NCBI GenBank assembly: GCA_001600495.1
Contig: BCKE01000006.1
Span: 507,399 to 532,281, forward strand
Direction: 5' to 3'
Source of the DNA: Pilasporangium apinafurcum
Taxonomy: Eukaryota; Oomycota; Peronosporomycetes; Pythiales; Pythiaceae
Length of the DNA stretch: 24,883 nt
Under the pieces are notes generated by a model. That model saw only the letters and a program-made list of their open reading frames with translations, had not been told where the DNA came from and did no database searches. A program made the translations under genes and the position numbers. Of this stretch, positions 672-23,748 are shown in pieces. The first letter of the stretch is position 1, and each line of letters begins with the position of its first letter.

Positions 672-2449
672 TCACATTTTGCCGTGCTGCTTCAGGGCCT
701 GCGCAAGGAGCACATTTTCAATCATCTGGTGACTCGCGGTAATACCGTTGGCGGTACCACACAACACGAAATCAGTGAGTTCCCCAATCTTCTCATGGTC
801 TTCACTCATTGTGCGGCTCGTGAACTCGGGAGTCGTGATATAACACGTTTGCAACAACGTATAATCAGAGGACATGGTCTTAGGGCGTTTGATGACGACG
901 TAGCCTTTTTCTCGGAAATGTACACCCGACAATGGCGCATCCGAGAACTCTACTGGATCAATGATCGACCGCCAGACAATTACCATACGATCTTCCTCGA
1001 TGTATCGACGCAAGATTTGCTTGACACGGAAATCCGCCTTGGTGTTATTCGCATGTAATTCCATACCTATATTTTCGATAATGGTATCTTCGGTTGTGTC
1101 CACCATGTCCTATAAGCAGCAACAGAACAACAGAAATCACGCACACATAGATATCAGAATGAGGTGCCCTCTTCAGCCTGGAAGAACCAGTAAATGTCTT
1201 CGTCTCGTTTTGTTACCTTGGCCGCCTTGTGGTAGTACTGACGGAAGGGAACGTGATCCATGTTTCGTGCGAAATGCTGCCACACAGCAGAGCCTGTCGC
1301 ATGAAGGCCGAAGGGCAAAACTTTGTTTTCAAATATTTCCATGTACATGCCGTTGACGCCATCGCGCATGCGGGCATCCTTGTGCGTAGTCTCCATCGAT
1401 CCAAGACCAATGGCTTCAAAGACAGCATCAACCTCGCGGTAGGACATATCCACACCAACGAGAAGCTCTTCGAAGATGGATGTATCTGTTCGGTCAGCTG
1501 TATTCGGATACACACGCTTGGAGCGCTTGCCCAACCCACAGGCTTCCATACCCTGAAATACATTCAAATAATACAGCGCAGTTTAGTACTGCAAAGTTCG
1601 ACAAACCAAGTATAATTCAACACTTTCACGTACCCGTAGTGTTGTCCGCTTCTTCAGAATCGCCTCAAGACTCTTGGCAATCTTAATTTGACTTTCCAGC
1701 ACGAGTTTTAAGCGAATGTTTTCCCGTTCAGACTGAATACGCTGCTCGCATTGATGGGCAGCGATTTCCTCCCACACACCTGGCACACGTTTCCGCACAA
1801 GGTCACTCGTATTTTCAGTCGTTTCGGCGTCCATTGTCTCTGTCTCTTTCCGTGGCAAACACCGGCCTGCACTGCTACTATCACCATCATAGTTCAGGCG
1901 TTGTTTCTTCTTTAATTGTGCCAGCTGGATCTCCATTTCCTGAACTTTCTTGCGTAAGTAGATCAGCTCCTGCTTGCGTTCATCGCGAGCTTTGTTGGGA
2001 TTGTACTTGAGAGGTTTCTTGGTCTTCCCATTCGCTGATTTTTTGGGAGATGATGATCGAATTTGTCGCTGGTGCGGATGAAGAGGCTGCAGTTGGAGTT
2101 GCTCATTCATTGGAACCGCCGGTAAAGGACTAAAGCTTGATACGATAGGCGCAGGAACAGGCACAGCGCCTATGTCCAACGACGGTGAAATCGGTGAAAT
2201 TGGCGAAATCGGGGAAATCGTAGAAATTGGGGAGATTGGTGACCGTAGCGGTGAAGGAATTGAGGACCCAAGCGCCAGTTCACGTGCATGCAGGTCCATC
2301 AACGCACTCACTTCATCCTCCTCCTGCTGTTCTCGCGCCTCTTGGGAACGGATGCGATCGGTCGTAGCCTGTGCCACTTCGACATATTCGTCGAGGAAGA
2401 GTAGTGCCGCCTCGAAGCTCTCGTGGGTTTCTTCGAGAAGGAAGGTCAT
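672..2449 (-). CDS. A1: bZIP-like / START-like protein (529 aa, 3 exons)
   Basis: Exons on the minus strand are 2449-1634, 1552-1217 and 1109-672; both introns (81 and 107 nt) are phase 0 with GT-AG ends. The start is the ATG of MTFLLEE, because this motif opens every paralogue; the frame is open further upstream but unlike the family. Residues 1-18 form the conserved acidic/hydrophobic N-terminal motif. Residues about 71-89 are a Ser-Pro-Ile tripeptide repeat. The basic region NPNKARDERKQ at about 150 runs into a zipper with Leu/Val/Met/Leu heptads. A second helical segment, VWEEIAAHQ to LKKRTTLR, spans about 226-272. A START-like fold runs from VWQHFARNM (about 363) through EEDRMVIVWRS to the C-terminal helix ASHQMIENVLL. 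Inferred role: DNA-binding regulator with a ligand pocket. It is closest to A3 and A4. I recall similar oomycete proteins labelled 'M96 mating-specific family', which I could not check. Confidence 0.85.
2184..2246. repeat. 9-bp tandem repeat inside A1 exon 1
   Basis: Six consecutive units of the type GGNGAAATY (2184-2237) plus a degenerate seventh unit. On the coding strand they encode Ser-Pro-Ile tripeptides. The unit length is a multiple of three, so copy-number change keeps the frame. It lies in the poorly conserved linker between the N-terminal motif and the basic region, and no other paralogue in the window has it. Confidence 0.9.
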
Positions 2450-2776
2450 ATTTGATTTATGGATGGAGTAAGACAGGATAAAGGTAGAGAAGTTGCTGAG
2501 ACTAAGAAGGACGACAATACGTGGATGTGTGGGCAACCGAAAGTATTGCGCAATGGATGCCTGATTTTTACAGATGAAGAAAAAAGAAAGTATATAAATC
2601 CCAAGTTATTTGTTTTTTATTGAGCAGTCATGATGGGCGGGAGTGAGAGGGAGATGTGCTTGAGAAATGACTCCAAACCTCAACGTTCCTTATTACTGGC
2701 TAGGTGAGTATGTGCTCACTATCGCTAGAATCTGAAGAGTGACTGACTAATTGGGTGCTGACCGCAGAGTCAGCAA
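2450..2776 (-). promoter_or_regulatory. A1 upstream region with initiator-like motif
   Basis: Non-coding gap between the A1 start and the A2 stop, both on the minus strand. At 2544-2556 the minus strand reads CCATTGCGCAATA, resembling the oomycete initiator TCATTYYNCAWTTT and lying 95-107 bp before the A1 ATG. A TATATAAAT string lies further upstream near 2590. Promoter assignment is inferred from position and motif. Confidence 0.4.
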
Positions 2777-3970
2777 TCACATGTCTCTGGCTACAGTAGA
2801 TTGGTCACCTTGTGACCAGTCGGCACTTATCAACATCATTCCCGAGGAAATGGGACACGAATGAAGGTCTTTTGCATTTGCCACCTGATACATGTCGTCA
2901 ACAAGCTCCACAAAGATGAAATACTCAATGTACGAATTCTGCTTCGAATGAGGGTAAAGCATAAAGGCATTTTGGATTTGCAAGTTACCCAAGCGAATGA
3001 TGACAGAGCTCTCTCTTGATGTGCACTGAATTCAGTCTCCCTATTCACTGTATCTCTCACCTGAGTATCCACAAGATAACCATCCATCCCGTGCATATCC
3101 ACGTCACTACTTGCGTTGGTTGTGCCCACTGCAAACGATTCAGCATCACTACTCCAAACACTGCTACCAATCGATGGTATATTGTCTATAGCAATAGTAG
3201 AAGTAGGTTTGTGCTTAGAGTCATTCGGCTGGATGAGAAACATGTCCATGGCCTATAACACAGAGAGTACATAAATCAGTGATGGTGAATGTATCTGTTT
3301 TTCTTGCCTATGCCAAAACTTAAGCAAGACAAAAGATGTTAAATGCACTTACTCGTAGCGTAGTGGGCCTTTGCAGCATGACGTTCAGTCGATTGGCCAG
3401 TTGCAATTGCTTCTTCAATAGTAATCGGAGCCGAATGTTCTCACGTTCCGCCTTGATGCGATCTTCGCATTGCTTTGCAGCATTTCGTTCCCATTCGCTA
3501 ACGTCATGTAAATTCCGCTTGCGGGGGCTGTCACACACCACCAACTCGGCTTTTTTTTCTGACAGTATTCGATGCGATGACTTTGGGTTATTACGCAATT
3601 GCTGCAAGTGTTGTTCAAGGACATGAATCTTCTCGCGCAAGTAGATTAACTCTTGAGTGCGCTCGTCACGAGCTCGATTGCGATTACACCTACGTGACCG
3701 CTTGTGGATGATCACAGCATTTTTGCGGGAATGAATACGTGTTCGCTGCTGTGAGCTTGTGGGACGCTGGTCGTCTTTTCCCGAGTCATCTGCACCGGGA
3801 AAACCTTTAGTGAATAGATCCGGTAGCACAGCGTCAAATACAAAATCCACTTGGTCCTTGTCGAGGTGGTGCGAATCCAATGATCCGATTGTTGAATCGG
3901 ATGAAAACTCTTCGACGAATGATAACGCAGCAGCAAAGGATTCAGTGTCTTCTTCGAGCAAAAACGGCAT
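2777..3970 (-). CDS. A2: bZIP-like protein without a START domain (about 352 aa)
   Basis: Exon 1, 3970-3353, is clearly family: MPFLLEEDTESFAAALSF at the N-terminus, basic region NRNRARDERTQELIYL at about 100, zipper, and the second segment KAERENIRLRLLLKKQ ending LQRPTTLR|gtaagt. The downstream part does not match its paralogues. The best model uses exon 2 at 3252-3061 and exon 3 at 3025-2777, giving a Ser/Asp-rich tail and then an unrelated segment (NSYIEYFIFVELVDDMYQV). No VWQHF or EEDRVVIVW signature is present in any frame, so the START-like fold is missing. The second intron in this model is only 35 nt, which is suspiciously short, so the 3' part is uncertain. It could be a decayed gene or a truncated DNA-binding-only paralogue. 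Exon 1 is secure (about 0.85); the rest is about 0.4. Confidence 0.55.
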
Positions 3971-4035
3971 GGTTTCGGGTTGTCTTATGTGATTTGGATT
4001 CCAAGTGGTGCAGAGATTTTACTTGTACAGTGCTA

Positions 4036-4946: not shown

Positions 4947-4993
4947 ATTCTCTCACACCGAGAACAAGTCTTTCTTGTATACTCTTCCTCACA
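4947..4993 (-). repeat. Left arm of an inverted duplication
   Basis: The minus strand of this segment matches the plus strand of 5254-5301 over about 47 bp, with one substitution and a GG/AAA difference. Both copies encode CEEEY-[TR]-RKTCS in one frame. The arms are about 260 bp apart. Confidence 0.8.
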
Positions 4994-5253
4994 GTCAACT
5001 TTAGGTACTCGTGAACAATGCATTAACCTCTATCCTCCATTTCTTCTACCTCTACGATACACTTTGACCTGACTTTTTAAGCAAACCAATACACATCAAT
5101 AAAAACTTGCTTCCAATTCTCTGTAACAAACTCTCTTCTTCTCAAGAACGGATGCTCGAGGAGACACAACTGATGGCTATGCCAAAATGATTATCCAGAA
5201 AGCGTGATGCGGTAGTGTCGGTGCGAAAGAAAGGCAAATATCACACATACGAG

Positions 5254-5301
5254 TGTGAGGAAGAGTATAGAAGAAAGACTTGTTCTCAAATGTGAGAGAA
5301 T
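5254..5301 (+). repeat. Right arm of an inverted duplication
   Basis: Partner of 4947-4993. In one frame it reads CEEEYRRKTCSQM then stops; a one-base shift gives an open continuation CERIRDVMKHQKVLDCL, parallel to CERIKSPKIPDWL in the left copy. This suggests two decayed fragments of one Cys-rich coding sequence, in opposite orientation. Confidence 0.75.
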
Positions 5302-6100: not shown

Positions 6101-7756
6101 ATGACGCCATTTCTTGATGATGGAGAGTTTGAGAACTTTGAGGCAGCACTGCTATTCCTCGACGAGTACGTCAAGGCTGTACAAGCCACGAGTGATCAGC
6201 TCCAAACCAATAATGGAGAAAATAAAGATAACGACGAGCTCATCGACTTCCACTCCCAAGTGACGCTCTCACCAATCGACCTGTCGTCTGCTGTTTCCTC
6301 GTCTCACATGAGTAGCCCACTGGCCACAACTAGCGATGAAGGGCGGTCACTGCCAGCTCCAAGCGGATCTAAACAGCCGTCACAATCGCAAGAACAAGTT
6401 CTGGTGAAGAAACTGCCGCCGACACGGACAGTCAAGCGCAAGACAACTGCCAAGTACAACCCAAATCGTGCACGAGACGAGCGGAAACAGGAGCTCATTT
6501 ATTTGCGAAAACAAGTACAGGACTTGGAACAAGAACTTAATCAACTGAAGAAGAAGCCCAAGTGGCCACGGAATAACGATGTTTGTTTAGTGAGAGAGCA
6601 GGAAGAGCAGCAAGAATTGGCTGAGGCGGCAGCGAATGGGCTGACGATTCCGTGCGTGTGGGAGGAAATTGCAGACCGGCAGGCGAAGCAGCGCGTGAAA
6701 TCTGAGCGTGAGAATATTCGACTTCGTCTCATTCTCGAGAGTCAGATTAAAATCGCCAAAAATCTGCAAAAAGTTCTGACAAAGCGATCCACGTTGCGTG
6801 TACGTATTACACTTGCTTTATGGTGTGTTGTAAGGGTATTTTTTTTGACAATTAACGACGTTTTTGCGATGAAATGGCAGTCAAACAAAGGCATGGAAGC
6901 ATGTGGTCCAGCAAAGCGGTCGAAACGTGTCCATCCGACCACAGCCGAACGTAACGATACCACCATTTTTGAAGAGTTACTTGCTGGGGTAGAGCAGTCG
7001 TACTTGGAAGTGGATAAAGTTTTTGAAGCCAACGGACTGAGCCGCACAGAAACGCAGACACGTGATGCACAAATGCGTGACAGTGCCGACGGAATGTACA
7101 TGGAAATCTTTGCCAACAAAATCCTGCCGTTCGGAAAGGATGCCACAGGCTTGGGAGTCTGGCAGCACTTTGCACACATTATGGAGCACGTTCCTTTTCG
7201 ATCCTACTACCGAAGAGAAACGAAGGTGCATTTTGAAGTTGAAGCCAGTCAGTTTTGTGTTGTAGTGCACTAACTGATAATATTATTGTACTTGATGATT
7301 TGGCAGGATATGGGGACGTCAGAAGACACAATCGTGGAAAATATTGGATTGGAACTGTCAGCCAACAACGCCATGGCCGATTTCAGTGTGAAGCAGATTC
7401 TGCGGCGGTATGTGGAGGAAGACCGCGTCGTGATCGTGTGGTGTGCGTTAATTGATCCGGTTAAGTTCTCAAACGAGCCGCTCTCAGGAGTTCATTTTCG
7501 AGAAAAAGGGTATATTGTCATCAAACGACCGAGTACCATGCCAGCCAAGTTCTCGCTCATGCAGACTTGCTATATCATTACACCAGAGTTTTCAAGTGAA
7601 GTAATGAGCGAAGATCAGGTTCGTATCGGGCAACTCACGGATTTTGTTCTCAGTGAAATTGCAGCAAGTATCACGGGTGGTCATCAAATGATCGAAAATG
7701 TGCTACTCGCGCAATCTATGAAGCCACAGAAGCAGCAGAGCAGTAACGCGAGATGA
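6101..7756 (+). CDS. A3: bZIP-like / START-like protein (497 aa, 3 exons)
   Basis: Exons are 6101-6799, 6881-7225 and 7307-7756, all phase 0, with donors GTACGT and GTGCAT and acceptors GGCAG. The ATG of MTPFLDDGEFENFEAALLF is chosen by family alignment. The basic region YNPNRARDERKQ is at about 118-128 and the zipper follows to about 155. The second conserved helix, CVWEEIADRQ to TKRSTLR, is at about 184-233. The START-like fold begins at VWQHFAHIM in exon 2 and continues in exon 3 through EEDRVVIVWCALIDP, ending in the helix GGHQMIENVLLAQS. Intron 1 is 81 nt, a multiple of three without a stop, so unspliced RNA would read straight through from the zipper half to exon 2. Closest neighbours in sequence are A4 and A1. 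Role as in A1: inferred DNA-binding regulator with a lipid-type pocket. Confidence 0.88.
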
Positions 7757-7821
7757 TCATCAAACTACAATTGTCAATATCCTATCCTATTTCTCATTGT
7801 TTAGTGTTAATTGTGTCATTA

Positions 7822-7848
7822 TAGTCCTCGCCACATGGGATCGTACAC
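7822..7848 (+). repeat. Left terminal inverted repeat
   Basis: 25 of 27 bases match the reverse complement of 8859-8885. Just inside, at 7855-7876, a hairpin can form with arms AAGTGAG and CTCACTT. Confidence 0.9.
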
Positions 7849-8083
7849 CGGTTAAAGTGAGCTACAGCTCTCACTTGCCCTTGACCGCTAGAAAACCATG
7901 CAAGCACATGAAACTAGAGATAAATTAGATTCTAGTTCACTACGTTAACCGTACAAACTTCAAAAACTGAAAGAGAGAAAGCAGCTATAAATCCAAGGTG
8001 TAAACCCCTTCAAATCCGATATTGTTATTTTATTAATACTTTTATTAATTTTTTGATAATTTCATTGTAATACTTTATTCAAG

Positions 8084-8725
8084 TCATTCACTTTCCTCAC
8101 TGCAACTTCGCACATCATCGTCATCACCATCTATCGGTATTATAGCTACATGATTGAGACTACAATAGCTTTCATCGAGATGTATCTCGGGAAGCTTGGG
8201 ATTGCCCTTCCTATCATAGTTATTGCATTTGCTACATAGATACCAATCTCTATATGCAACGATATCAATATCATCGACGGAATAGTGCCTCAACTTACCT
8301 CTCCCAAATCGGAATTTGTTTCTCCTCATAACTCGACTTACAGTCCTCCGAGTAAACTTCTCATCTGTTCGCTTCTCAATCTCTTCAATGATAATCGACA
8401 CAGTGGTCGGGAGAACTTTCCGGTTGCGCTCGTATACTATATCGCGTATATTAGTCACAAGAGATGCAGAGTAGGAGAGTGGAGGTTTTCCTCCAGGTGA
8501 TGGTTCAGCTAGGAAACCGGGATCACACTGGCGATTCCACTGCGCGATAACACATGCAACTGTGCTTTGAGAGACGCCCATGCACTCAGCTATATGTTCC
8601 CGCACTTTTCGTTGCATTTTCGAACGTCCTTCATCTTTTTCCTTCACGAAGTAGTGATGAGAGCGCACAATCATAATTTTCTCTGCTATCGATAGTTCAT
8701 GTTTGACCTTTGGTAACTTCGCCAT
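8084..8725 (-). pseudogene. Truncated Tc1/mariner (IS630)-type transposase
   Basis: About 213 codons from MAKLPKVKHELSIAEK; an in-frame ATG 11 codons upstream (8758) is also possible. The N-terminal half has two helix-turn-helix-like segments: REHIAECMGVSQSTVACVI (recognition of the terminal repeats) and a second one around RRTVSRVMRRNKFRFGRG. The frame then reaches the first catalytic aspartate in EIHLDESYCSLNHV, and the other two acidic residues of the DDE/DDD triad are absent. The reading frame ends about 20 residues later in an acidic tail (GDDDDVRSCSEESE). This fits an internal deletion joining the N-terminal part to the original C-terminal tail. It cannot catalyse transposition as it stands; binding of terminal repeats may persist. 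Confidence 0.8.
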
Positions 8726-8858
8726 TTTTTGGCCATTTATTTCCCAAACGCACACCATTCAAAAGCTCTCTCTTTCCTCTTTTCATTGATATACTCTGCA
8801 AAGTGCTTTACCAGTTGAGACTTTTGTATATTGCGTCAACAAAAACAACTCATATAGC

Positions 8859-8885
8859 GTGTACGATTCCATGTGGTGAGGACTA
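8859..8885 (-). repeat. Right terminal inverted repeat
   Basis: Inverse partner of 7822-7848; the transposon ends at 8885 and TA at 8886-8887 completes the target duplication. Confidence 0.9.
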
Positions 8886-8976
8886 TAATTACTAAATACG
8901 ACCAAAAAGCCACTGATTGGTCCAGTGCGCGAGCAGGTACGATTTGCGATTCTGGAGGTTATCAGAGATAGCAGAA

Positions 8977-10621
8977 ATGATTCCATGCCTTGATGAAAGC
9001 ACAGAAAACTTTGAGGCGGCGCTGCTGTTCCTGGACGATTTCTTTCAGGCTGTGCAGTCTTCAAGCGAACAGCTCCAACGGCTCACTACCGTACGAATTA
9101 GTGAAGAGGACGAAGAAGACAGTGGTGACAAACGGTTGCGATTACAGTCACACGCGGCACTCTCTTCATACAAGCAATCTACAACATCGTTATGTTTGGA
9201 GGCGGGTAGTCTGCTAAGCTCCACTAGTGACGAAGCGCTACGATCAGGAATTCGAGACCCATCCAATAATGCACCACACCAGCAGCAACCAACAGAAAAA
9301 CAAGTACAAGGGACGCACAAGAAAAAACGACGGAGCAATCCGAATCGAGCGCGTGAAGAACGAAAACAGGAACTTATCTATCTGCGAAAGAAAGTGGTGG
9401 AGATGGAGCAGGAGCTTGAACGACTACAAATCCAACCGAAACGACTTATAGGAGATTCGTCGACTTCTATCAGAGACATCGAGAAAGAACGAGAAGAACT
9501 AGCAGAAGTTGTAGCGAATGGACTCATCATTCCCTCTGTGTGGGAAGAAATTGCTGCTCGACAAGCAAAAGAGCGCACGAAATCCGAACGTGAAAATGTT
9601 CGGCTTCGCCTGATTCTTGAGAGTCAAATCCGAATCGCCAAAAATCTGGAAAAAATTCTCAAAAAACCTTCTACCGTGCGTGTAAGTGGCCTGAGGACCA
9701 TTAGCTTAGACGTGGTCTATATTATCAGTATGATCCCGATAACTGGCTGATCACTTGATAACTATTGTAGTCGAATCAACGATTGCAGGCTTATGGTTTG
9801 ACGAAGCGACTCAAATGTTTCCATCCATCCACACATGAACTGTCTGATGCCGCTATCTTGGAAGAACTCGTACGGGGTGTGGAGAAGTCATACATGGAAG
9901 TAGATGCAGTGTTCACAGCGAACGGATTGGCGCTCACCGAAACTCAAACGCGCGATGTGCAGTTGTGCAACAGCGCCGATGGCATGTACATGGAAATCAT
10001 TGCCAATAAAATTGTTCCCTTCGAGAAGGACGCCACAGGGAAGGCAGTGTGGCAACATTATGCACGTATCATGGAGTATGCACCTTACCGATCCTACTAC
10101 CGACGGGAATCGAAGGTATGTTCAGCATTATTTCTGCAGTTTTTGACGCGCACAGATAGGTGAAAATGCGTTTTCGATGTTTTTCTTGATGTATTTGACA
10201 GAGTATGGGGCCATCGGAAGACACGATTGTTGAGAACATTGGGCTTGAAGTATTCGCGAACAAGGCCAAGGCTGATTTCCGTGTGAAGCAAATCTTGCGA
10301 CGGTATGTCGAAGAAGACCGTATTGTGATCGTATGGCAGGCGTTGATCGATCCAGTCGAGTTTTTGGATCAACCTGTGTCGGGTATTCGTTTCCGTGAAA
10401 AAGGCTATATCATCATCAAGCGCCCGAGCACCATGCCCCACACATACTCGCTTCTGCAAACTTGCTACATTATCACGCCTGAAATTACGAGCACGGTGAT
10501 GCGTGAAGATCACGTTTGCACGAACCAGCTCACGGAGTTGGTACTCAATGAAACGACGGAGAGTATTGCAGGCGGCCACCAAACGATTGAAAATGTATTG
10601 CTGACGCAAGTCATGTCGTAG
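8977..10621 (+). CDS. A4: bZIP-like / START-like protein (489 aa, 3 exons)
   Basis: Exons are 8977-9681, 9771-10115 and 10202-10621, all phase 0 (introns 89 and 86 nt). The start is the ATG of MIPCLDESTENFEAALLF. Basic region SNPNRAREERKQ at about 119-130, zipper to about 157, second helix SVWEEIAARQ to LKKPSTVR at about 187-235. Exon 2 opens SNQRLQAYGLTK, matching SNKGMEACGPAK of A3, which fixes the acceptor at TTGTAG. START-like fold from VWQHYARIM through EEDRIVIVWQALIDP to the helix GGHQTIENVLL. It lies only 91 bp beyond the transposon, so its upstream region includes transposon sequence; ATTGG (CCAAT on the other strand) occurs near 8913. It is convergent with A5 (287-bp gap). A3 and A4 look like the most recent pair in the cluster. 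Confidence 0.88.
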
Positions 10622-10909: not shown

Positions 10910-12498
10910 CTATCGCTTCTGCATGGATTGGGACAGCAAGACATTTTCAATCATTCGATGGCTTGCTGCAATGTTTGCAGCAGTTGTGCTAAGCACAAAA
11001 TCTGTAAGTGCTCCGGTTCTCGCGTCTTGGTGACTCATTAGTCCATTGACAAACTGTGGCGTCAGGATATGGCAGCGTTTCATGACCGTATACTCCGACG
11101 ACATCGTTTTTGCCTGTTGAAGTATGATGTATCCTTTCTCGTCGAACTGAATGCCAACCAAAGGTTCGTCAGAAAATTCGACAGGCGTGATAAATGCCCG
11201 CCATACGATGACAACACGGTCTTTTTCAATGTATCGTCGCAAAATTTGTTTCACGCGGAAATTTGCTTTCGTGTTGTTCGATTGCAATTCCAGTCCCATG
11301 TTTTCCACGATTGTGTCTTTTGCTGCCTCCATTTTCTAATTAGACACACGGCAATCCATAATCAAGTCAATAAACAAGTACAATTTAGACCACATCGAAG
11401 CACAAATAATGCCTACCTTGGACTCTTTCTGATAATAAAAGCGGTACGGCATGTGCTGCATGTTGTTCGTGAAGTGTTGCCACACGGCAGAATTAGCAGC
11501 ATCAACGTTAAAAGGCAGAATTTGGTTCGACAACATCTCCAGATACATGCCATCGGCACTGTCTCGCATGCTTTTGTCACTGAACGGAATCTCCATGCGA
11601 TCCAGGCCATTTGTGGCAAAGATATCATCCACCTCTTGGTATAGTTGCTCCACTCCTGATAGCAGAGCGCTGAACACATCGTTATCACTCGGCACTGCAG
11701 TGAGTTGATGCACGCGTTTCATGCGCTTCCCGATGGTACACGCCTCCATGCCTTCGTTAGACTGTCATGACATGCAAGACAGTTTGATTGAGTTGGGCAA
11801 ACAATAGAAATGAGTATAAAGTCAGCAGTTATGACAATACTTACTCTTAGTGTAGATCGCTTCTTTAGGATCTTTTCCAGGCTTTTCGCGATCTTGATTT
11901 GACTTTCCAGCACAAGTTTAAGACGAATATTCTCGCGTTCGGATTCCATTCGTTGTTCCGATTGTCGAGCAGCGACTGCTTTCCAGATCTGCTGGCTAGA
12001 ATCACACCCACTGCGTGGCTGCCATCCCTTATCACCGCTAAAACACTTGGTGTCATTCCCATCGTACTCGCTGCTCGCAGCAACGGATTTGCGCCGCAGT
12101 TCTCGAAGCTCCTGCTCCATGGTCTGGACTTTGTTGCGTAAATAGATGAGCTCCTGTTTGCGTTCGTTGCGTGCACGGTTTGCGTTCTTTCTCGTTTTTT
12201 TCACGGGTATTTCAGGATTGGAGTTTAACGATTGTAGCTGTTCAGCTGCAAGCGATAACGCTAACTGTCCATCAGCAGCTAATTCCGAGGTGGAGTTTGA
12301 CACATATGCTGTTACAAGGCTGTTAGCGGTCTGAGATGCCTGAAGCAGTTGTTTATCTGCCTTTTCCTCTTCATTCTCTGCTTCTTTTACGAGGCCATGG
12401 ATCTGATCGCTCTCGGTTTGGACGGTGGTACCGTATTCTTCGAGAAACGACAGTGCAGCCTCGAAACTTGCCCAGTCGTCCTCCAATTCTAGTGGCAT
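10910..12498 (-). CDS. A5: bZIP-like / START-like protein (474 aa, 3 exons)
   Basis: Minus-strand exons 12498-11845, 11761-11417 and 11335-10910, phase 0, introns 83 and 81 nt. Start ATG of MPLELEDDWASFEAALSF. Linker rich in Ala, Ser and Gln; basic region NANRARNERKQ at about 104-115, zipper after it, second helix IWKAVAARQ to LKKRSTLR at about 170-218. Exon 2 opens SNEGMEACTIGKR. START-like fold from VWQHFTNNM through EKDRVVIVWRAFITP to ASHRMIENVLLSQSM. The usual E-E-D-R is E-K-D-R here, and FREKGY is FDEKGY; neither break is obviously disabling. It shares a 469-bp divergent upstream region with A6. Confidence 0.88.
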
Positions 12499-12967: not shown

Positions 12968-14696
12968 ATGGCGTTCTTACTGGAAGGCATAGAACCCGAG
13001 GTGGCGCTGGAGGCGGCGCTATCGTTTCTGGAGGATTATGTGGACAGCGATGGCGATGATATGTGTTCTGATACTCAGCAGCAGTTATTGCATCCGTATG
13101 GCCACGAAGGGTTGCAGGATGTGAATGTTTCAGTACATAATCAACAGCCGATTTCTCAATTTTTTGCTTGCGATGGCTATTTTGCTGATCACGCTGTAGC
13201 TGACATAGTAGAGAATATGGACGATATGGCTGAGGACCATGCTGCCTCACAGCTGGTACAGATTGGTCACTCGTTTTCAATAAATGAAGGAGAACATGAA
13301 GAATATGAGGCAGATGCTGCTGAAGGTGACACGATAGTTCAATCAACTACCACCAACACGTCTACGACACAATTGGAACTGATACCCACGAGACCAGTGA
13401 AGAAGAATCCGAACAAAGCCCGGAACGAGCGGAAGCAAGAACTTATCTACTTGCGCAACAAAGTATTTAAAATGGAGCAACAACTCATGGAACTGAAGCA
13501 AGCAACGTCACCATCCTGCAGCGGAACTGGAGGGCTACTCTCTCGCTGTGAGCGGTTGCCATTGAAAGCCTCCAGTTCTACCAGATTGCGCATCCGACCA
13601 AGGAATGAGTTCACGACCTCTTCACGCGTGTGGGAGACAGTGGCGCGTGGACAATACGAACAGCGTGTTGATGCTGAACGCGAGAATATTCGACTCAAAC
13701 TTATTCTGGAAGAGCAGATCAAGGTTGCCAAGAGTCTTGAGAAGATTCTGTATAAGCGCGCAATCTCAAAGGTATGTCTCGACATTATTTGTTCTGCAGA
13801 TGGGAAGTTAACTAACTGTAATTCCCGATTAATTCCAAAGGGTTTGGATGCATATCGCACGGACCAGCGCTCCAAGTGGATGGATTCTGCAAACTCAAGC
13901 GCATTATCTGACGCGGCGATCTTCCGAGATCTGAGTATTGGTGTCGAGCAATGCTACTTGAATGTGGACACAGTGTTTTTGACCAACAGGCAAGATATGC
14001 GCAAGAGTGATGGTGGTGAAAATAGGAATGCGGCCCATATGCGCGATGGGGTTAATGGCATGTACTTGGAAATATTTGCGGATAAAGTGCTGCCGTTTGA
14101 GAAGCACGCAACCGGAACGGCTGTGTGGCAACACTTTGTGCACAACATGGACCGATTGCCACGCAAATTTTACCAGCGCAAGGGCCCGAAGGTATGATAA
14201 GTATATGATTTGGGACACGCTCGTTACGGTCAGGATTGACATACCCCTTTGTTGTTAGCACTTGGATGTCACGGATGATACTATCACTGAGAGCTTTAGT
14301 CTCGAAATGCGAGCAAACGATACGAAAGCAGATTTCTTAGTGAAGCAGATTCGTCGTCGATTTGTCGAGGAAGACCGGATTATTATTGTCTGGCGAGCGT
14401 TGATTGATCCCATCGAATTCTCAGATGAACCTGTATCAGGGTATCGTTATCATGAAGATGGGTACATCATAGTTAAGCAGCCATCTACGATGTCATCCGA
14501 GTTTACGCTCGTGCAAACCTGTTTCGTTATCACGCCCGATTTTAGTGACGACGTCACGAAGCAAACGTCCAAGATTGGTAAATTAACTGATTTTATGCTG
14601 AGCACGATTGCGGCCTACATCTCAGCGAGCCATCGAATGGTGGAGAATGTATTGCTGGACCAGACATTGAGGAATCATCGCGCCTCAAACTCATAG
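12968..14696 (+). CDS. A6: bZIP-like / START-like protein (530 aa, 3 exons)
   Basis: Exons 12968-13771, 13841-14191 and 14259-14696, phase 0. Start ATG of MAFLLEGIEPEVALEAALSF. A long acidic linker (Asp/Glu rich, about residues 18-135) precedes the basic region NPNKARNERKQ at about 145-155; zipper; second helix RVWETVARGQ to LYKRAISK at about 220-268. START-like fold from VWQHFVHNM through EEDRIIIVWRALIDP to ASHRMVENVLLDQ. Intron 1 (69 nt) has an unusual AAG acceptor at 13838-13840, with branch-like ACTAACTG before it. A CAG at 13797-13799 inside the intron would, if used, give an immediate stop (ATG GGA AGT TAA), and full retention would insert 23 in-frame residues. The most divergent clade A member with a START domain. 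Confidence 0.85.
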
Positions 14697-14771: not shown

Positions 14772-15230
14772 TTATCGCACCATGAGCAGTAGATCTCGAT
14801 TCCCTGTATCCTCTAAAATCTTGTTTTGAATCGTTTGCTGATTAGTGCGCATGAATCCACTTAATGTATTGAATATCAAGTGGTGCAAATGAATAATTCG
14901 TGCGCTAACTTCTTCCGTACTGTTGGTATTCTCTTGGTTGGAGTAGATATGGTAACACGTGTGAAGCACTGATGCTCTTAATGAATTTGTGGTTGACCAG
15001 GCCACGATCAGCCATCCACGTTTTCGAAAGTAAATCGCTTCGCCTCGTGGTATTAGCATCGACAATCAGCAATATATCATGCGATCTTTCTCCTTGTACT
15101 TGGGCATATAGGACACCGAATAGATGGTGATCACGCTGACTTGCTTCTATAGTGCCATCATGTGGCTCTTGTGGAATGTGTTACCATCGATGTGCTTTTC
15201 CTGTAGAACAATTTCAAAGGGAAGCACCAA
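14772..15230 (-). pseudogene. psiB0: decayed clade B copy (exon 2 remnant plus exon 3)
   Basis: The frame 15065-14772 matches the second half of B1 exon 3 (FRKRGWLIVAWSTTNSLRAS... and MRTNQQTIQNKILED). Reading upstream, the first half is still recognisable, HIDGNTFHKSHMM against B1 NVDGNTYHKSYMI, but contains an in-frame TAG and a TGA, and the EGDR signature region is scrambled to KEKDRMIYC. Just upstream, LPFEI resembles the LPFEV of B1 exon 2, joined almost directly to exon 3. No exon 1 is found. This is a dead copy, with the 5' portion deleted. Confidence 0.85.
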
Positions 15231-15420: not shown

Positions 15421-17092
15421 CTACACCATCAAAAGCGCTCTGCTTCCCGCCTCCTCAAAAATCTGGTTTTGAATTTTTTGCTGATTTGCTCTTGTGCGGC
15501 CACTTAATGTTGTCAGGACCAAATTTTTCAAGCGATTCATGCCATGGGTTGATAGCATCGCCTGTTGATTCGGTTCAGTAAAAATACGATAACATGTGCG
15601 AAACACGGACGCATTGAGTGGATTAGTGGGCGACCGCGAGGTCATCATCCACCCATTTTCTCGGAATCGAAGCTGCCCATCTTGTGGTATTAAGACTGAG
15701 GACCAGACGTACACGATCCGATCGCCTTTATCAAACTTACGCATCACCGAAACACCATGTAAACTCACTAACCCAATGCGGTCCTGTAACGAGATCATAT
15801 AGCTCTTGTGATAGGTGTTGCCATCGACATTCCGTTTCTAAACGTATATAAAAGACAAATCAACTCATCCGTGAGTAAAATCGATACAAATAACGAAGAA
15901 ATACAGCACATGTTATGCAGTATAGTAAACAAATACTCACATGGACGTAGTATCGGCACGGATCTTTCTCTTTTGGTACTCCTGTGAAGCCTTGCCACAT
16001 CAAGTCACCGGCGCGGTGAACTTCAAACGGCAGAATAGTGTTGGTACCCACTTCAACATACTCCCCCAGTACTGGATCCTCCTTGGCTTGCGTTGTACAG
16101 CTGATTTGTCCCATCGCTGCCAGATTATCTGGCTGAAGTACACTATCTGAGTCGAGATATAGCTTCTCAACACTTTCCGCCAGTTCATCCAGAATCGCTT
16201 GGTCATTCGAAAGTGTCTCTTCGTTGTAATACAGCGGATGGCTCTGATCAAATACAAACTCCAATCCCTATGTGCAGCCACACAATAACAATTATGGTGT
16301 GGAATCAGTCACACTCATCAATATTAATACATGTGAAGCATATACACAATCGTGTGGTACCTCCAACGTCGATGGTTTATTGAGTAGTCCTTCAAACACC
16401 TTTGTGAGCTTCATCTGCTTCGCCAGCGTCTCTCGGAGTCGGCTGTTCAAAATTTCCGATTTATGTCGTTCGCGCAGTTGTTCAATCGCTAATTCCAGCC
16501 ACCTGGATCCAGCTTTTGATCGACTCATCGAATTTTCCCCCACAACTAATCGAATGACATTGTTGGTTTCCTCTTCATCGATGGAACTACTACTCGACGA
16601 TGAAGTTGACGGTGACGTAGGCGGGGATCGACTGCGCGTAAGCTGGATCTGCCGCAATTGTGTGAGTCGTGTTTCCAATTCCACGACTTCCTGGCGTAAA
16701 GAGAGGAGTTCTTGGCGTTTTTTCTCCCGTAATCTCGCAGCAGCCGTGTTACTGCGTCGCCCTGTGCGTCCATCTTTCTTCTTCGCCACCACTGTCGTGG
16801 GCGTATCATCACTGGATTCACCGCTACCACTGCCAAATTCTCGGCATTGTGCGGCGAATGGATCTGCGTTGATGGAAGGAAGAATTGTGGTATAGGACGC
16901 GCGGAGGAAATCGGGTGAGATTCTCTCCACGCTACTGACGTCTGTCAAAAATTCGGCGGAGTTGCTCTTGGCCATTGTCGATGTAGTACGCGTAGTGTCA
17001 TTTCCACTCGTAACGGTGACCTCACATTCATCGATAAACGCTAACGCTTCCTCGAGCGTGGCTTGTTCATCCTCCAACACCAAGAAGCTCAT
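15421..17092 (-). CDS. B1: bZIP-like / START-like protein (491 aa, 3 exons)
   Basis: Minus-strand exons 17092-16361, 16267-15941 and 15837-15421, phase 0, introns 93 and 103 nt. Start ATG of MSFLVLEDEQATLEEALAF; the frame is open upstream but off-family. Basic region RRSNTAAARLREKKRQ at about 115-131, zipper LLSLRQEVVELETRLTQL, then a Ser-rich linker (seven Ser in a row), then the second helix WLELAIEQLRERHKSE at about 198. Exon 2: LEFVFDQSHPLYYNEE, with LPFEVHRAGDLMWQGF near its end. Exon 3 has KGDRIVYVWSSVLIP and the C-terminal helix RANQQKIQNQIFEE. The zipper register is canonical, but the residue at the invariant Asn position is Ser, with Asn shifted by one. Likely a nuclear regulator; function inferred. 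Confidence 0.87.
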
Positions 17093-17377: not shown

Positions 17378-18330
17378 TCAACAGCTGCGCGGTGAGTGAA
17401 GGTCATGAAAACATTGGCAGATGTGTAATAGAAATTGATAGTGAATTGCAAATTGATACACATCAACAACACAATCACGGACAACTGATCTACCCGAAGA
17501 AGAAGTAATGATGCGAAGGCATTTTGGTTGAAATATCGTCTTGTCACTGACTTGGTGCTTCTTCTTTGGAAATAAGGTAGATTCTCCCATCGTATTAACC
17601 TGACGAAGGGAGTCGTGGGTATCGAAATAGCACAGCTGGTCCGCGACTGGAAGTTCCTATGTACCAAAACGCAATTCACATCATGAGTAACTAGTCATAA
17701 TCAAGGTAATTCTCCATAAAAACACAACTCGTACGGTACCCGGAACGTAGATGGCTTGTGCAACAGCCCATCAAGCACTTTCGTGAGCTTCATCTGCTTC
17801 AGCAGTGCTGCTTTAAGCTGGCCGTTTAATTGTTCAGCTTTGCGTCGTTCTCGAAGTTGATCGATCGCGATTTCCAGCCATATGGAGCCATCAATCATTT
17901 CATTTTCGATGTTGAGGCCACTTTGTTCAGGTAGTAACTGGAGTTGACTCTTCATATCTATTCTCTCCATTGATTCTTGACGGCTGCGTTGTAACTGTGC
18001 CAGCCGCGCTTCCAGCTCTATAATCTCCTGCTGCAGCGAAGCCAATTCTTCCTTTTTCTTCTCACGAAGGCGGACTGCTGCCATCGCCACTACACGTTTG
18101 CGACGACGCCTGCGCGCCTCATCCCGTTGCTGCTTGGCTGAACTCTCGTTGATCATTTCTTCATATTTGGATGGACATGCGACGTCGGTTGAACTTGGAC
18201 ATTCGAGTTCCCATAGATCATTTCCATTTACTTTACATCGTTCCTCTACAGTCGTGACATCGTAAGTATCAATGAAGGCGAGTACTTCCTCCACCGATGG
18301 CTGCTCGGTTTCCAGTTCCAGGAAACTCAT
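17378..18330 (-). CDS. B2: bZIP-like protein without a START domain (about 289 aa)
   Basis: Exon 1, 18330-17740, is typical clade B: MSFLELETEQPSVEEVLAF, a basic region rich in Arg (RRRRRKRVVAMAAVRLREKK) at about 74-93, zipper LASLQQEIIELEARLAQL, and second helix IWLEIAIDQLRERRKAE at about 148-165, ending LLHKPSTFR at the usual splice point. Exon 2 in the model, 17656-17378, begins ELPVADQLCYFDTH and ends in a Cys/His-containing tail; it has no similarity to the START half of B1 or B3 and there is no third exon. The 83-nt intron has good ends. So the DNA-binding half is intact while the ligand half is replaced or lost. It could be a truncated regulator able to dimerise with its neighbours, or an early pseudogene. 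Confidence 0.65.
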
Positions 18331-18655: not shown

Positions 18656-20235
18656 TCAACCTCCCGCATTCTCGAGTAGTGCGTTCTGGATATTTTGTTG
18701 GTCCAACCGCATTTTGCTACTCAAAAAATTCATGACAGTGTGCTTAACATGGTTGTCGGCATTCACGTCGCCAAGTGGAGTCTCGAGTTCTGATTCAGCG
18801 TAAATATGATAACAAGTACGTAATATCGACGCCTGCTGCGGTCGACTCTGGGATCGTTCTATGACCATCCACCCTCGTTCACGAAATCGAGGGCGTTCAT
18901 TGCGCAGCTTGAGCAAAGATGCCCATATATACACAACACGATCCTCTTCATCATACCTCCTTATGGAAGAGAGCCCATGAACACCTATGGTTTGTGTTTG
19001 GTTTGGTATAGTCATCATGTAACTTTTCTCAAATAACGTCCCATCCTGTCGGCGTCTCTGCATCAGCATATCATTAGCCACCAAGAAAAGTGAGCTCAAT
19101 TCATTTCATCAACACCAACTTGGAAGAAAAGGGACTTACTTGTAAATAATATTTGGATGGATCTGTGTGAGAAGAGACATCTGTAGCGGTTTGCCATATT
19201 AGATCGACGGCTCGATGGAGCTCATATGGCATTAAGGTGGTAGTGGTGATTTCAATGTAATCACCGATGGTAGTGTCGTGCTTGATCCGAGTCGCACTTC
19301 CAATTTGTTCACTAGCAGGTGACTGTAGAAACGAATTCGTCTCCAGGTACAACTTGTCTAGCCGTAACGTTAGCTCCAGCATAACCTCATCATCGTTTTG
19401 CACCATTGCCTTATCGAAGTACAGTGGATCCTGCTTGTCGAAAGGGAACTTCATACCCTGTGATGGATGATAGACCAACAAGTCACACCATTAGTCGCAT
19501 GCCTAACATATGCAATGCTTTACAACTTCGCAAAGGGTAAACCTGTAAAATGGACGGTTTGTGCAGCACCCCTTCAATACTTTTAATGAGTTTTATTTGC
19601 CTGGCCACTGCCTCCCGCAGCTGTATGTTGAATTTCTCAGCTTTCGATCGTTTCTCAAGCTCGATAACGACTGCATTTCGCCACGAAAAGTGGTTGGTTG
19701 ACCTGTTGTTCTCCATGCCCATTAGCTGCATGAAAATGTTTGCTTCGTCTGCCTGTCTCGAATACCTCAGCGGTACATTGCCACTACCACTAACGATGTG
19801 CTGTGCATGCTTCAGTGTGCTCAGACGTGTCTCTAACTCCGCTACTTCTGCACGCAATGAGAACATCTCAGTCTTCCGTTGTGCTCGCAACCGTCGTGCC
19901 GCCTCAACATCCGAACGGCGATTCCGTGGTTTCTTCGTCGTTTTCTTTGATGTTTTATCTACTTCGGAAGTCAGATTGCTGGTTATCCGAGAGGGTTTAT
20001 TGAGTACTATGGCGCTGGTCGATGAGGACGAGTTGGCATTTAAAGATGGGGATACAAAGATTGGACCCAATGTGTCGTCGATCCAACTGCTGCTGTCACT
20101 GGAAGTTGTGCCTTCATCATCCGCCTTTCCCAGTACGTCATCTATTACGATTGATGGTTCACAGGCGTCGATAAACGCCAGTGTTTCCTCCAACGTCGCT
20201 TGTTCATAATCGTCTTCGCCTAGCAAGAAACTCAT
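18656..20235 (-). CDS. B3: bZIP-like / START-like protein (470 aa, 3 exons)
   Basis: Minus-strand exons 20235-19543, 19457-19140 and 19057-18656, phase 0, introns 85 and 82 nt. Start ATG of MSFLLGEDDYEQATLEETL. Ser/Thr-rich linker, then basic region RRSDVEAARRLRAQRK at about 104-120 and zipper MFSLRAEVAELETRLSTL. This is the most canonical bZIP of the window: spacing to the first zipper leucine and the Ala-Ala and Arg are right, but the invariant Asn is Asp. Second helix SWRNAVVIELEKRSKAE at about 184. Exon 2: MKFPFDKQDPLYFDKA. Exon 3: EEDRVVYIWASLLKL and the helix LDQQNIQNALLENA. The donor of intron 1 is GTTTAC, weaker than in its neighbours. Transcribed toward B2. Confidence 0.87.
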
Positions 20236-20339: not shown

Positions 20340-20566
20340 GAGGATCAGCTCACATTCAGCATAAACATAATTGTAAGTGTGCAAAACAATCATTCTCTAC
20401 ATGGTCTTCGACTTTTTCACGACGGACCACGCTTGCTTGCGAAATTGTATGCATTCATTTCTTGGTATCAACAACGATGTCCACACATAAATGATGCGAT
20501 CGTCTTCTTCATGTTTCTTCATGATGCACAGACCGTGGATGCCATCTCGACATTATGACGGCGGTA
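20340..20566 (-). pseudogene. psiB4: fragment of a clade B exon 3
   Basis: The minus strand reads GIHGLCIMKKHEEDDRIIYV and continues WTSLLIPRN, matching GVHGLSSIRRYDEEDRVVYI and WASLLKLRN of B3. After KSKTM there is an in-frame TAG, then the matching frame resumes as HTYNYVYAECEL against CYHIYAESEL. The first part of the exon is missing, though a possible acceptor TTTCAG|TACCGCCG at about 20566 parallels B3. No other exon is found upstream. It is a dead fragment between B3 and C1. Confidence 0.8.
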
Positions 20567-20825
20567 CTGAAACTTTTTCCCTCTTTTGTTCTCATGTGCA
20601 CTAATCAACACGTTTCTGGTTCAAGATGGTGGACGTTATTCTTGCTGACAAACGGATGCTGTACGAATATGAAGAAAATACCTATCATCATTCGGAGCAG
20701 CAAATCGCCCTTCATGTGCCTCGATTAGCATCTAGAAAAAGCAATATGCTTTTCTTCTTTCGTTGATAAGACCATTTGAATTCAAAATAGTGCACTTGAA
20801 TGCAAAGAAACTCTGTATGAACGCT
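20567..20825. other. Interval with a possible plus-strand exon remnant
   Basis: A plus-strand frame at about 20626-20766 includes EENTYHHSEQQIALHV, which resembles the start of clade B exon 3 (GNTYHKSYMISLQ...SLHGV in B1). It faces away from psiB4 and stops quickly. The similarity is short, so this is tentative. Confidence 0.3.
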
Positions 20826-22214
20826 CTATTGCACGCTGACACCCACACCAGCGAGCAATGCAGTTTCGACTTCGTCCTGCACAACATCGAACTTGGCGTT
20901 GATTGTGCGTCCTACCATGGCACAAATACTGCCCAGCTTGTGCGCTTGTTTTACACTGTGAGTTGCTGAGTGGATCACGTCAGCAAATACGCGGAAGCAC
21001 GTTTGTGAGATCGTGATTGGATCTGGTCGTGAGCTGCTTTTCCGAAAGACAATCCATCCTTGCTCATGTAAACGAACCGACGAATCTGTAGGTAACAGCA
21101 TCACTGACCGCCACACGAAGATCACACGGTCGGGCTCGACAAATTTTCGAAGTGATGTACGACCATGAACAGTCACATTGCTACTCTTTTCCTCGACTAA
21201 GATGGAAAAACTCTTGGAGAGACTATTTGCTGTAGGCTTGCATGACTAGAAAATGCAAATATATGTTAGTTCAGTACACAAGAAATGATCGTGTCATGAA
21301 AGCCTACATGTTGGTGGTAGTGGCTGGTCTGAATCAGCTTGCCTGTGATTAGTCCCCATATCGCTGCACCACTTTCTTTCAGACTATATGGCAATGGTAC
21401 AACCTCTTTCATCTCCACAACCATGCCATGTTTCGGGTCATGTCGGAGTTCCAACGTTCGAGCGGCGTGGTCAGTTAAATCGAAAATATTATCAGTCTCC
21501 AGGTACAATCTTTCCACTCCACGCTCGAGGTCTGTGTATGAAATTGACTCGTTTCCATCAAAGAAGTCCCTTGGAGCCCGATCTGACTGTCCAAAGAGAA
21601 ATTCATGGTCCTAAAAACATTAAATATATAGATTCAGCATGTACAAAAAAGATAACGGCAACAGCACCCAGCCTTACCTCCATATTGACATGGTTGACCA
21701 GCGCCTCTTCTAGGTAGCGTGCCAGCTTAATCTGTCGTGTCAACAATGCCTTCAATTTGCGGTTTGTTATTTCTGATTTCTGGCGTTGTGTATACTGTCG
21801 TAGTGCCATTTTAATCCATATGGACGCTAATTCCGGTTTCTCATTCGAAAATGAATCGCTTGCATCGTTCAATACCAACTGCGCAACACAGTCTGGACGA
21901 CCATGAACACGTCGAAGATTCTGCAGTCGTTTTTCCAATTCCTGCACCTGTACGCGCAATGCACGCAACTCTGCTTGCCATCGTGCGCGATAATAATTTG
22001 GTCCTTTCACTGCCTTTGTCTTTTGCGGTTTGAAGTCGTTGTTGTTATTGCCATTCTTGTCCTTTGTGCCATCGATTGCCTCGGTGACAACAGGTGGATG
22101 AGAAAGATCGCCTGATATCGGTGCTTCTATGTCTGTGTGCTCATATTGAAAGCAGTTATCGATGAACGCCAGCGCTTCTTCCAACGAAGCCTCGTCCTGC
22201 AACAAGAAGCTCAT
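20826..22214 (-). CDS. C1: short bZIP-like / START-like protein (419 aa, 3 exons)
   Basis: Minus-strand exons 22214-21678, 21610-21308 and 21245-20826, phase 0, introns 67 and 62 nt. Start ATG of MSFLLQDEASLEEALAFIDN. The linker is short with an Asn run; basic region GPNYYRARWQAELRAL at about 72-88, much less basic than in clades A and B; zipper LRALRVQVQELEKRLQNL; second helix IWIKMALRQYTQRQKSE at about 133. Exon 2: DHEFLFGQSDRAPRDFF, with a helix VERLYLETDNIF and ending SHYHQH. Exon 3: VEPDRVIFVWRSVMLLP and a C-terminal helix. The divergent basic region, with Trp and two Tyr where DNA-contacting residues are expected, makes DNA binding doubtful; it may act as a dimer partner. Divergent from C2 across 195 bp. 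Confidence 0.85.
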
Positions 22215-22409
22215 GCTTTTGTCTGACAAATTACGAACGTCCTCCTCGCGTTGCTGTAGAGGATTATCCTTTTATATCCAATCAAATTATCCAAACGTGA
22301 AATTATTTTTATAAACAGCCAATGAAATTGTGTTATCAGAAGCAAATTGACCAATGATAACAATTAAATGAATGAACCCATCGAAGAAGTCTAATGAGAG
22401 ACAATTCAA
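22215..22409. promoter_or_regulatory. Compact divergent promoter of C1 and C2
   Basis: 195 bp between two start codons. Three CCAAT boxes lie on the plus strand (22278-22282, 22319-22323, 22351-22355). The minus strand carries TATAAAAGG at 22268-22276, 54-62 bp before the C1 start. A CCAAT box in a similar TTTATATCCAATCA context occurs upstream of A3 (5906-5910). A shared bidirectional promoter is inferred. Confidence 0.6.
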
Positions 22410-23748
22410 ATGACTTTCTTGTTGAAAAAGGAAGATCAGACAACTGTAGAAGCAGCATTGGAGCTCATTGATGCATATCATAGGAGCAACAACAATGACG
22501 GCATCGGTAATAGCAGCGACGAACTCGTTACTCCATCTCTTTCTTCGGGAAAAGCTGGCAAAAGACAAAAAAAACACAATAATCGCTCAAGAGAGCGACG
22601 ACAAAAAGAACTTCGTTTGCTGAGAACTCAGGTGCAGGAACTGGAAACCGAATTGCAGTATTTAAAGCGCATATCGTGCGATTCACGTACACCCCTACAG
22701 CTGTTTAGTGGTGGCAGAAATAATGAACGTGGTCAGCCAGCAAAGCCTCAACTAGCTACAATTTGGATCAACATGGTCATTCGACAACACCAGCAACGAC
22801 AGCGATCGGAAATGACGAATCGTAAACTAAAGAGGGTTGTAGAAGAGCAGTTCGAAATCACCAAATATCTCGAAGATACCCTGATAAAGACAATGACATT
22901 GGAGGTGAGTGCATTAGGATGGTGATCTAGCCAAAAGTTAGGAAGCAATTGTCTCTAATAACTGTCTGTGCTCGTGTAGGATCTGGACATTATTTTTGGA
23001 AGATATCCCCAAATCCATCGCGATCACTTCGCTGGAAATGACGCGATAATCTATGAAGAGCTAGCGAGTGGAATGGAGAAATTGTATCTGGACGTGGACA
23101 GCATGCTGGCAGCAACTGGACTGGACGCACAGGAGACAATTGCTCGTGCCGTGGAGATTAAGCATAATCCTCTCCTGGGTGGTTATGTAGAGATGAGAGA
23201 TATCTCTTTCTGGTCGTATAATTTTAAGGAAAGCAGTACTGCGCTGTGGCTGATGCTTAGTAAGAGGATGCTGCAGACTGATTTGCACCATCAACATGTA
23301 CGTTGTCTGTATGCGTCTAGTAATTCCATGATCAAACCAGTGGCCATATTTGACTTTATTCTCCATAGAGAATAAAAACTGTCGATAATGACCTTGAAAA
23401 AAGCTATTTCATGGTGATATGCGATGAAGATGGGGAGCTTTTCAAAGTTTTTTCGCGGATATGGAGGCAGATCGCCTCGTGATTGTGTACAGATCACTCT
23501 TGACTGCACCAATGGATGTGCTTCGCGTTCGCGAAGAAACGTGGATTGCTCTAGGGAGATCCGCAAGCGATGATTTCGCTTTGGCACAAATGTGTCTTCG
23601 CTGGATGGACGACCATGATTTTGTCACAAATGTTCGCCAAAATGTACATCAACTCAAGAAATTGGTCATGCAGGCGCTTTATGAGAAGATAGATAGCTCG
23701 CACCAGCTCATCGAGTATGTTTTACTTGAAAATGCCGCGCCAGTATAA
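22410..23748 (+). CDS. C2: short bZIP-like / START-like gene with a one-base frameshift
   Basis: Exons 22410-22904, 22980-23297 and 23369-23748; introns 75 and 71 nt, phase 0. Start ATG of MTFLLKKEDQTTVEAALELI. Basic region HNNRSRERRQKELRLL at about 57-72, zipper LRTQVQELETELQYL, second helix IWINMVIRQHQQRQRSE at about 118. Exon 2: DLDIIFGRYPQIHRDHF, helix MEKLYLDVDSML, ending LHHQH like C1. Exon 3 opens RIKTVDNDLEKSYFMV and runs to ELFKV, but the EADRLVIVYRSLL signature that must follow is in another frame, one base off. The break falls at a run of six T (about 23448-23453). Without a correction the START-like half is lost. Either a homopolymer sequencing error or a young pseudogene. Length would be about 397 residues. 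Confidence 0.72.

Follow-up and report, generated by a model that had tools for sequence, protein, structure and literature searches.

Gene cluster and layout

The window analysed here is the whole stretch of 24,883 nucleotides (nt) of Pilasporangium apinafurcum DNA at C6:507399-532281, where C6 is one of the 136 contigs of a 36.5 Mb genome. It holds thirteen related loci whose intact members encode a bZIP-like zipper region joined to an alpha/beta C-terminal domain. Eight loci are intact three-exon genes (A1, A3, A4, A5, A6, B1, B3 and C1; 419-530 codons in spliced models built from open reading frames (ORFs) and conserved splice signals), three are broken copies (A2, B2 and C2) and two are fragments of exon 3. 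The same count of thirteen was obtained from the merged whole-genome exon searches. Each intact gene has two introns of 62-107 nt, both in phase 0 and at homologous positions in all eight. In these eight genes the product of exon 1 runs from an N-terminal motif through a variable stretch and a basic stretch to a short leucine zipper and a second coil, while exons 2 and 3 encode the C-terminal domain. All eight proteins fall into a single alignment, and residues invariant among them occur in the C-terminal half as well as in the zipper and second coil. When exon 3 of A3 was searched against the whole genome it matched B3 (E 3.5e-10), B1 (8.2e-7) and C1 (7.9e-6), so the A, B and C groups are related and their likeness is not due to chance.

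A preliminary description made from the sequence had reported a cluster of homologous genes with one layout at these positions, and the eight spliced models and their common alignment bear this out. It had counted eleven genes and two decayed copies, all eleven with the same layout. The total of thirteen loci stands and the decayed copies are the exon-3 fragments, but A2, B2 and C2 are broken; the full layout is thus found in eight of the eleven, and the N-terminal motif, as read from the translations, in all eleven. The features are as follows; the exon profiles were built from the window genes themselves, so that matches of A1 and the other intact genes to all three profiles arise by construction.

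A1, 672..2449, minus strand: intact; exons 2449-1634, 1552-1217 and 1109-672; gene model and matches to all three exon profiles.
A2, 3353..3970, minus strand: broken; exon 1 kept (N-terminal motif, basic-zipper region, second coil), while a profile search downstream matched neither exon 2 nor exon 3.
A3, 6101..7756, plus strand: intact; exons 6101-6799, 6881-7225 and 7307-7756; gene model, exon profiles and structure models.
A3 basic stretch and three-heptad zipper, 6437..6559, plus strand: first d-position Leu is residue 135, with Arg at d-10.
A3 second coil (W...R..SE..N..L), 6659..6799, plus strand: from the alignment and heptad count.
A3 predicted START-like half, 6956..7735, plus strand: exon 2 from residue 26, intron 7226-7306 and exon 3; the exon 2-3 model and its nearest folds speak for it, the exon-3-only model against it.
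A4, 8977..10621, plus strand: intact; exons 8977-9681, 9771-10115 and 10202-10621; gene model, with a 97% identical relative on contig C8.
A5, 10910..12498, minus strand: intact; exons 12498-11845, 11761-11417 and 11335-10910; gene model and exon profiles.
A6, 12968..14696, plus strand: intact; exons 12968-13771, 13841-14191 and 14259-14696; gene model and exon profiles.
Exon-3 fragment, 14802..15194 (C6:522200-522592; exon profile 15062-14793), minus strand: internal stops, nearest the B group; genome search and exon profile.
B1, 15421..17092, minus strand: intact; exons 17092-16361, 16267-15941 and 15837-15421; the only window member above the Pfam bZIP_2 cut-off.
B2, 17740..18330, minus strand: broken; exon 1 kept, with no exon-2 or exon-3 profile match downstream in the same search.
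B3, 18656..20235, minus strand: intact; exons 20235-19543, 19457-19140 and 19057-18656; gene model and exon profiles; Asp at the Asn position.
Exon-3 fragment, 20346..20597 (C6:527744-527995; exon profile 20546-20400), minus strand: three internal stops; genome search and exon profile.
C1, 20826..22214, minus strand: intact; exons 22214-21678, 21610-21308 and 21245-20826; gene model; fewest basic residues in the basic stretch.
C2, 22410..23748, plus strand: broken; exon 1 22410-22904, exon 2 22980-23297 and an exon-3 remnant 23461-23745, which matches part of the profile only and lies out of frame with the preceding exons.

A genome-wide family, with purifying selection in one pair

The cluster in the window belongs to a family spread across the genome. 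At least 88 loci were found in the genome at E <= 0.001, 50 of them on contig C6. These counts come from merging six exon searches, keeping rows at E <= 0.001 and removing repeats of the same place, and they are lower bounds; matching rows on contigs C103 and C116 and at the two ends of contig C105 may be duplicates, which may inflate the figure of 88 slightly. Both halves of the protein were seen at 61 loci, exon 1 only at 12 and exon 3 only at 15. Among the 36 genes chained by exon 2 and exon 3 (window and fetched loci together), 35 also carry a match to the zipper-coil part of exon 1, and therefore both halves travel together. On contig C6, fragments of the family at 474248-474568 (plus strand) and 499222-499542 (minus strand) share their stops and have identical scores; with some 25 kb between them and opposite orientations, they look like an inverted duplication located upstream of the window. 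Elsewhere, at C6:90856-109224 and at the locus L056, about eight members have exon-1 and exon-3 matches in open frames of equal length (439-537 amino acids), and these members thus seem to have lost their introns.

On a tree of 32 members the eight window genes need five changes, and 10 of 500 shuffles were as low; the window genes thus do not form a single clade, although most shuffles leave them less clustered. The nearest relative of A4 is the 97% identical gene on contig C8, A6 falls with genes on contigs C57, C54, C105 and C34, and B1, B3 and C1 group with a gene on contig C54. For A4 and its contig C8 copy the ratio of nonsynonymous to synonymous substitution rates (dN/dS) is 0.02, 0.05 and 0.05 in segments of exons 1, 2 and 3, which indicates purifying selection on both halves in that pair. 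This was the sole informative pair of nine, as five pairs had at least one segment with infinite dS and in three more dS exceeded 1 in all segments. In the profiles, the dN/dS estimates and the tree, the exon-1 segments start at the basic stretch, with the N-terminal part of exon 1 lying outside them.

These values bear on the idea that the cluster is a tandem array in decay that no longer has a function. Five of the thirteen window loci are broken or fragments, and a transposon-like insert lies between A3 and A4, both of which would fit such an array. Against it stand eight intact genes whose splice sites are conserved, together with the dN/dS of 0.02-0.05 measured in the single pair of nine where dS is unsaturated, and we regard decay as a very improbable explanation.

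The zipper half

The zipper is short, about three heptads, and follows directly on the basic stretch. Of the 231 a and d positions in 33 family members, 199 carry L, I, V, M or F, compared with 59 of the 495 other positions. Two of the seven a/d positions in each member are set by the search pattern, and once these are subtracted 133 of 165 are hydrophobic. We consider dimerisation of the family proteins very probable. In bZIP proteins a conserved Arg (the GCN4 R243 position) and a conserved Asn (the GCN4 N235 position, d-18) lie in the basic region. Counting ungapped backward from the first zipper leucine, the Arg (d-10) is present in all eight window genes and in 28 of the 33 members. Between d-22 and d-5 there are 5-9 Lys or Arg residues in all eight, with the fewest in C1 (5) and 7-9 in the others.

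Several observations weigh against a conventional bZIP regulator. The conserved Asn was found at d-18 in none of the eight window genes, where the residues are L, A, R, T, V, S, D and A, the Asp being that of B3. Nearby Asn residues in the A genes, B1 and C1 can be aligned only with a gap, that of B1 being one residue off. The heptad signal of the second coil is modest (0.49 in the best register, against 0.19). It has also been found for P. infestans that bZIPs without the conserved Asn mostly gave no DNA motif (11/17 of Asn-type, 1/7 of Cys-type and 1/5 of Val-type proteins gave one, as reported in the available text of PMC11267843). Direct DNA contact is weakened for both of these reasons, the loss of Asn and the P. 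infestans result, and we see it as evenly poised between yes and no.

Pfam searches with exon 1 alone place B1 above the bZIP_2 cut-off (24.4 vs 22.3 bits), the sole one of the eight to reach it; B3 lies below (16.5 bits), and none of the remaining six matches bZIP at E <= 1. The whole-genome search, which used bZIP_2 (PF07716) and left out PF00170, gave at least 13 matches, 12 of them outside the window, with B1 the sole match inside it; the family thus outnumbers the recognised bZIP_2 set several times over. Judged by sequence, the family is bZIP-like but divergent, at the edge of or outside bZIP as defined. The bZIP half of the preliminary description is thus upheld in its zipper and in the Arg of all eight genes, but not in the Asn, and only B1 is recognised by the family profile.

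The same data suggest that the proteins may be zipper partners that do not bind DNA: the divergent basic region would not read DNA, canonical bZIPs would be sequestered in a dominant manner and the C-terminal half would be a regulatory or docking module. The loss of Asn in all eight, the single protein above the bZIP_2 cut-off and the 12 of 13 bZIP_2 matches outside the window, which supply other bZIPs to pair with, are in keeping with this account, and heterodimers or blocking have been suggested by the authors of PMC11267843 themselves for P. infestans. It fits less well with the basic stretch, which keeps its 5-9 Lys/Arg and the Arg at d-10 in all eight, and with the A4/C8 pair, in which the exon-1 segment (from the basic stretch) has the lowest dN/dS (0.02 vs 0.05 and 0.05, a nominal difference). 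This partner or decoy role is the main rival, though we think it unlikely. Truncated A2 and B2 would be its extreme form. A2 (3970-3353) and B2 (18330-17740) still encode the N-terminal motif, zipper and second coil without the C-terminal half and, if expressed, could serve as short zipper-only partners; the LITTLE ZIPPER proteins of plants embody a similar idea.

The C-terminal half

The preliminary description had assigned the C-terminal half to the START fold from its sequence pattern, and had named Pfam searches and structure prediction, of A3 among others, as ways to check this. An AlphaFold2 model was made of A3 exon 2, intron 2 (81 nt, a multiple of 3, read through) and exon 3, with the exon sequences of the other genes as the alignment. 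Its mean predicted local distance difference test score (pLDDT) is 74 and its predicted template modelling score is 0.71; ten-residue blocks reach 79-95 over most of exon 3 and stay below 50 in the intron. The order of elements is START-like: a helix, two strands, two helices, five strands and a long C-terminal helix. In a Foldseek search of the PDB all 16 matches at E <= 0.001 were of START/StARkin type (CERT 12, CalU16 2, MLN64 1 and PRELID1 1), the best being CERT at E 2.6e-5, with MLN64 at 2.0e-4. We take CalU16 and PRELID1 to share the START-related fold. No actin-capping protein (CapZ) entry was among the best 50 of the 1219 matches.

A comparison of sequence profiles was also made with hhalign, in which the C-terminal halves (35 rows given, 34 used) were set against eight START sequences of the same genome. 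The score was 20.2; the highest of 60 column shuffles reached 15.4, and the reversed profile 10.0. Column shuffles are a lenient control because they also destroy hydrophobic periodicity, and this comparison is suggestive only.

Other results speak against a START fold. The template modelling (TM) scores of the 16 Foldseek matches are low (0.19-0.46, with root mean square deviations of 9-27 A), perhaps partly owing to the 27-residue intron translation kept in the model. The hhalign probability is only 1.4%, and sequence profile searches of the PDB had ATF-4 (E 0.41) and geminin (E 0.081) as their best hits. Pfam START was not among the matches listed at E <= 10 for the eight window proteins and eight divergent paralogs (0/16), a list from which weak START matches would mostly be absent since few matches with E above about 0.1 get past the HMMER filters. 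In the genome as a whole Pfam START gave 17 matches, all of them outside the window. A second model, of A3 exon 3 alone (pLDDT 79), which avoids the intron insert, had no PDB match at E <= 0.001. Its best match was CapZ at E 3.2e-3, ranks 1-23 were all CapZ or large complexes containing it, and the first START-type entries came at ranks 44-45 with E 0.14. We assume that dynactin and the actin-branch complex contain actin-capping protein. This preference for CapZ speaks against START, or at least gives START no support.

It follows that the C-terminal half might instead be an antiparallel sheet with a long helix and no lipid pocket, CapZ-like or a new fold, used for oligomerisation or protein binding. 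The CapZ ranking of the exon-3-only model and the unlisted Pfam START in 16 members are what this proposal would lead one to expect. Once exon 2 is included, however, CapZ is missing from the best 50 matches and START/StARkin types take every place at E <= 0.001, and the Pfam capping-protein family was not among the matches listed for the 16 members. A fold without a pocket is for these reasons improbable in our view, and the modelling suggests that the C-terminal half is probably a helix-grip domain of START/StARkin type, though by sequence it is not a member of PF01852. What remains of the earlier START assignment is the predicted topology and the nearest solved folds of A3; the Pfam check yielded B1 for bZIP_2 and no listed START in any of the eight window proteins, and the structure check is qualified by the low TM scores and by exon 3 alone.

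Other sequence features of the window

Exon 1 of A1 contains a 9-nt tandem repeat of 6.7 copies (2183-2242) that encodes repeated ISP triplets in the linker, where changes in length are likely to occur. The divergent genes C1 and C2 are separated, from start codon to start codon, by 195 bp (22215-22409) in which several CCAAT boxes and a TATAAA are found. Upstream of the genes CCAAT/ATTGG occurs 14 times against 7.8 expected, in 6 of 11 genes, which is not a strong signal.

The insert between A3 and A4 (7810-8897) is DNA-transposon-like, with 39-nt terminal inverted repeats (7810-7848 and 8859-8897, 87% complementary). It holds a minus-strand ORF of 224 amino acids (8084-8758) with weak winged-helix/helix-turn-helix matches (HTH_33 E 2.6e-4, below the cut-off), and we presume it to be a short Tc1/mariner-type element. 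Between A2 and A3, at 4960-5287, there is an inverted repeat whose 37-nt arms (95% complementary) are separated by 254 nt and which is possibly a small non-autonomous element.

Proposed function

The most likely reading, which we hold tentatively, is that the family consists of ligand-responsive dimeric regulators, bZIP-like and nuclear, with a helix-grip pocket at the C-terminus. The basic stretch and zipper would pair two chains and touch DNA, alone or via partners, and the second coil would lengthen or specify the dimer. The pocket domain may bind a hydrophobic ligand or a partner and in this way set dimerisation or dimer choice, stability or activity. Tandem duplication with divergence would then have given many versions. 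The N-terminal acidic-hydrophobic motif (e.g. FEAALLFLDEY) could be an activation or docking helix, which is a guess. Nuclear location, DNA contact, the formation of heterodimers, ligand binding and gating are features that we infer. DNA contact and the putative ligand binding are the weakest links, and gating by the C-terminal pocket is possible but falls a little short of an even chance.

In its boldest form, the proposal is that an oomycete lineage evolved its own zipper-plus-START-type regulators, about 90 loci of combinatorial lipid- or sterol-gated transcription regulators in an elicitin-rich organism. We consider this form doubtful and rather on the unlikely side. Elicitins mark oomycetes and are known sterol carriers, and the 50 matches to the elicitin family in the genome agree with the oomycete setting of the preliminary description. 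If the pocket does bind a lipid or sterol and controls the zipper, the zipper-plus-START design known from plant HD-Zip III/IV proteins would have arisen a second time, and part of the puzzling expansion of Asn-less bZIPs in oomycetes would acquire a function. In that case the many natural variants would also offer a new system for testing what the START domain of a transcription factor senses. Should the pocket not do so, the genes would still form a regulator-like family of very large size, and the available text of the P. sojae bZIP survey (PMC4046829) makes no mention of its second half.

Comparison with known systems

The closest counterparts are the Phytophthora bZIPs in which the conserved Asn is substituted. 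As described in the available text, P. sojae has large tandemly duplicated sets (PsBZPc) with the Asn replaced (PMC4046829), and P. infestans has expanded classes with the Asn substituted (PMC11267843). The likeness lies in the oomycete host, the large tandem bZIP-like sets and the replaced Asn. The residues differ, with Cys, Val, Tyr and other classes at this position in Phytophthora and L, A, R, T, V, S, D and A in this family. A further difference is that the P. sojae survey, in the text available, predicted no extra functional domain in its 71 bZIP candidates except in one PAS protein, whereas this family has a predicted START-like half. The comparison with that survey is by description only, and the family may overlap its 'other' class or its 62 unconfirmed candidates.

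The bZIP-PAS proteins of oomycetes, PsBZPc32 (PMC4046829) and PlBZP32 (PMC7273347), are described as having a sensor-type domain after the bZIP. PAS is not START-like, and there is one such gene among the P. sojae candidates as opposed to a large family here. M96 mating-specific proteins were rejected as a counterpart, as they are described in PMC5999078 as secreted, with a histidine-rich first third followed by a part rich in glycine, serine and tyrosine.

The exon 2-3 model has the START domains of CERT and MLN64 (StARkin superfamily) among its best matches in the PDB, but the Foldseek alignments have 8-12% identity, besides the low TM scores and the missing Pfam match. START domains have nine strands, and the family model has seven predicted strands (2+5).

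Plant HD-Zip III/IV proteins combine a zipper and then a START domain in one nuclear regulator. They have a homeodomain before the zipper, whereas this family has a basic region there, and no homeobox was among the 18 Pfam families listed for the eight window proteins at E <= 10. A START match at the sequence level was not among the Pfam matches listed for 16 members of this family. An origin independent of plant HD-Zip III/IV is likely.

A search of the open-licence literature, which did not extend to closed-access publications or to annotated protein databases of oomycetes, turned up no oomycete protein that joins bZIP and START; START-like domains of Phytophthora homologues may already be recorded in databases. 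Bringing these systems together, the expansion of oomycete bZIPs with Asn substitutions is already known, and what this family would add to it is the predicted START-like second half.

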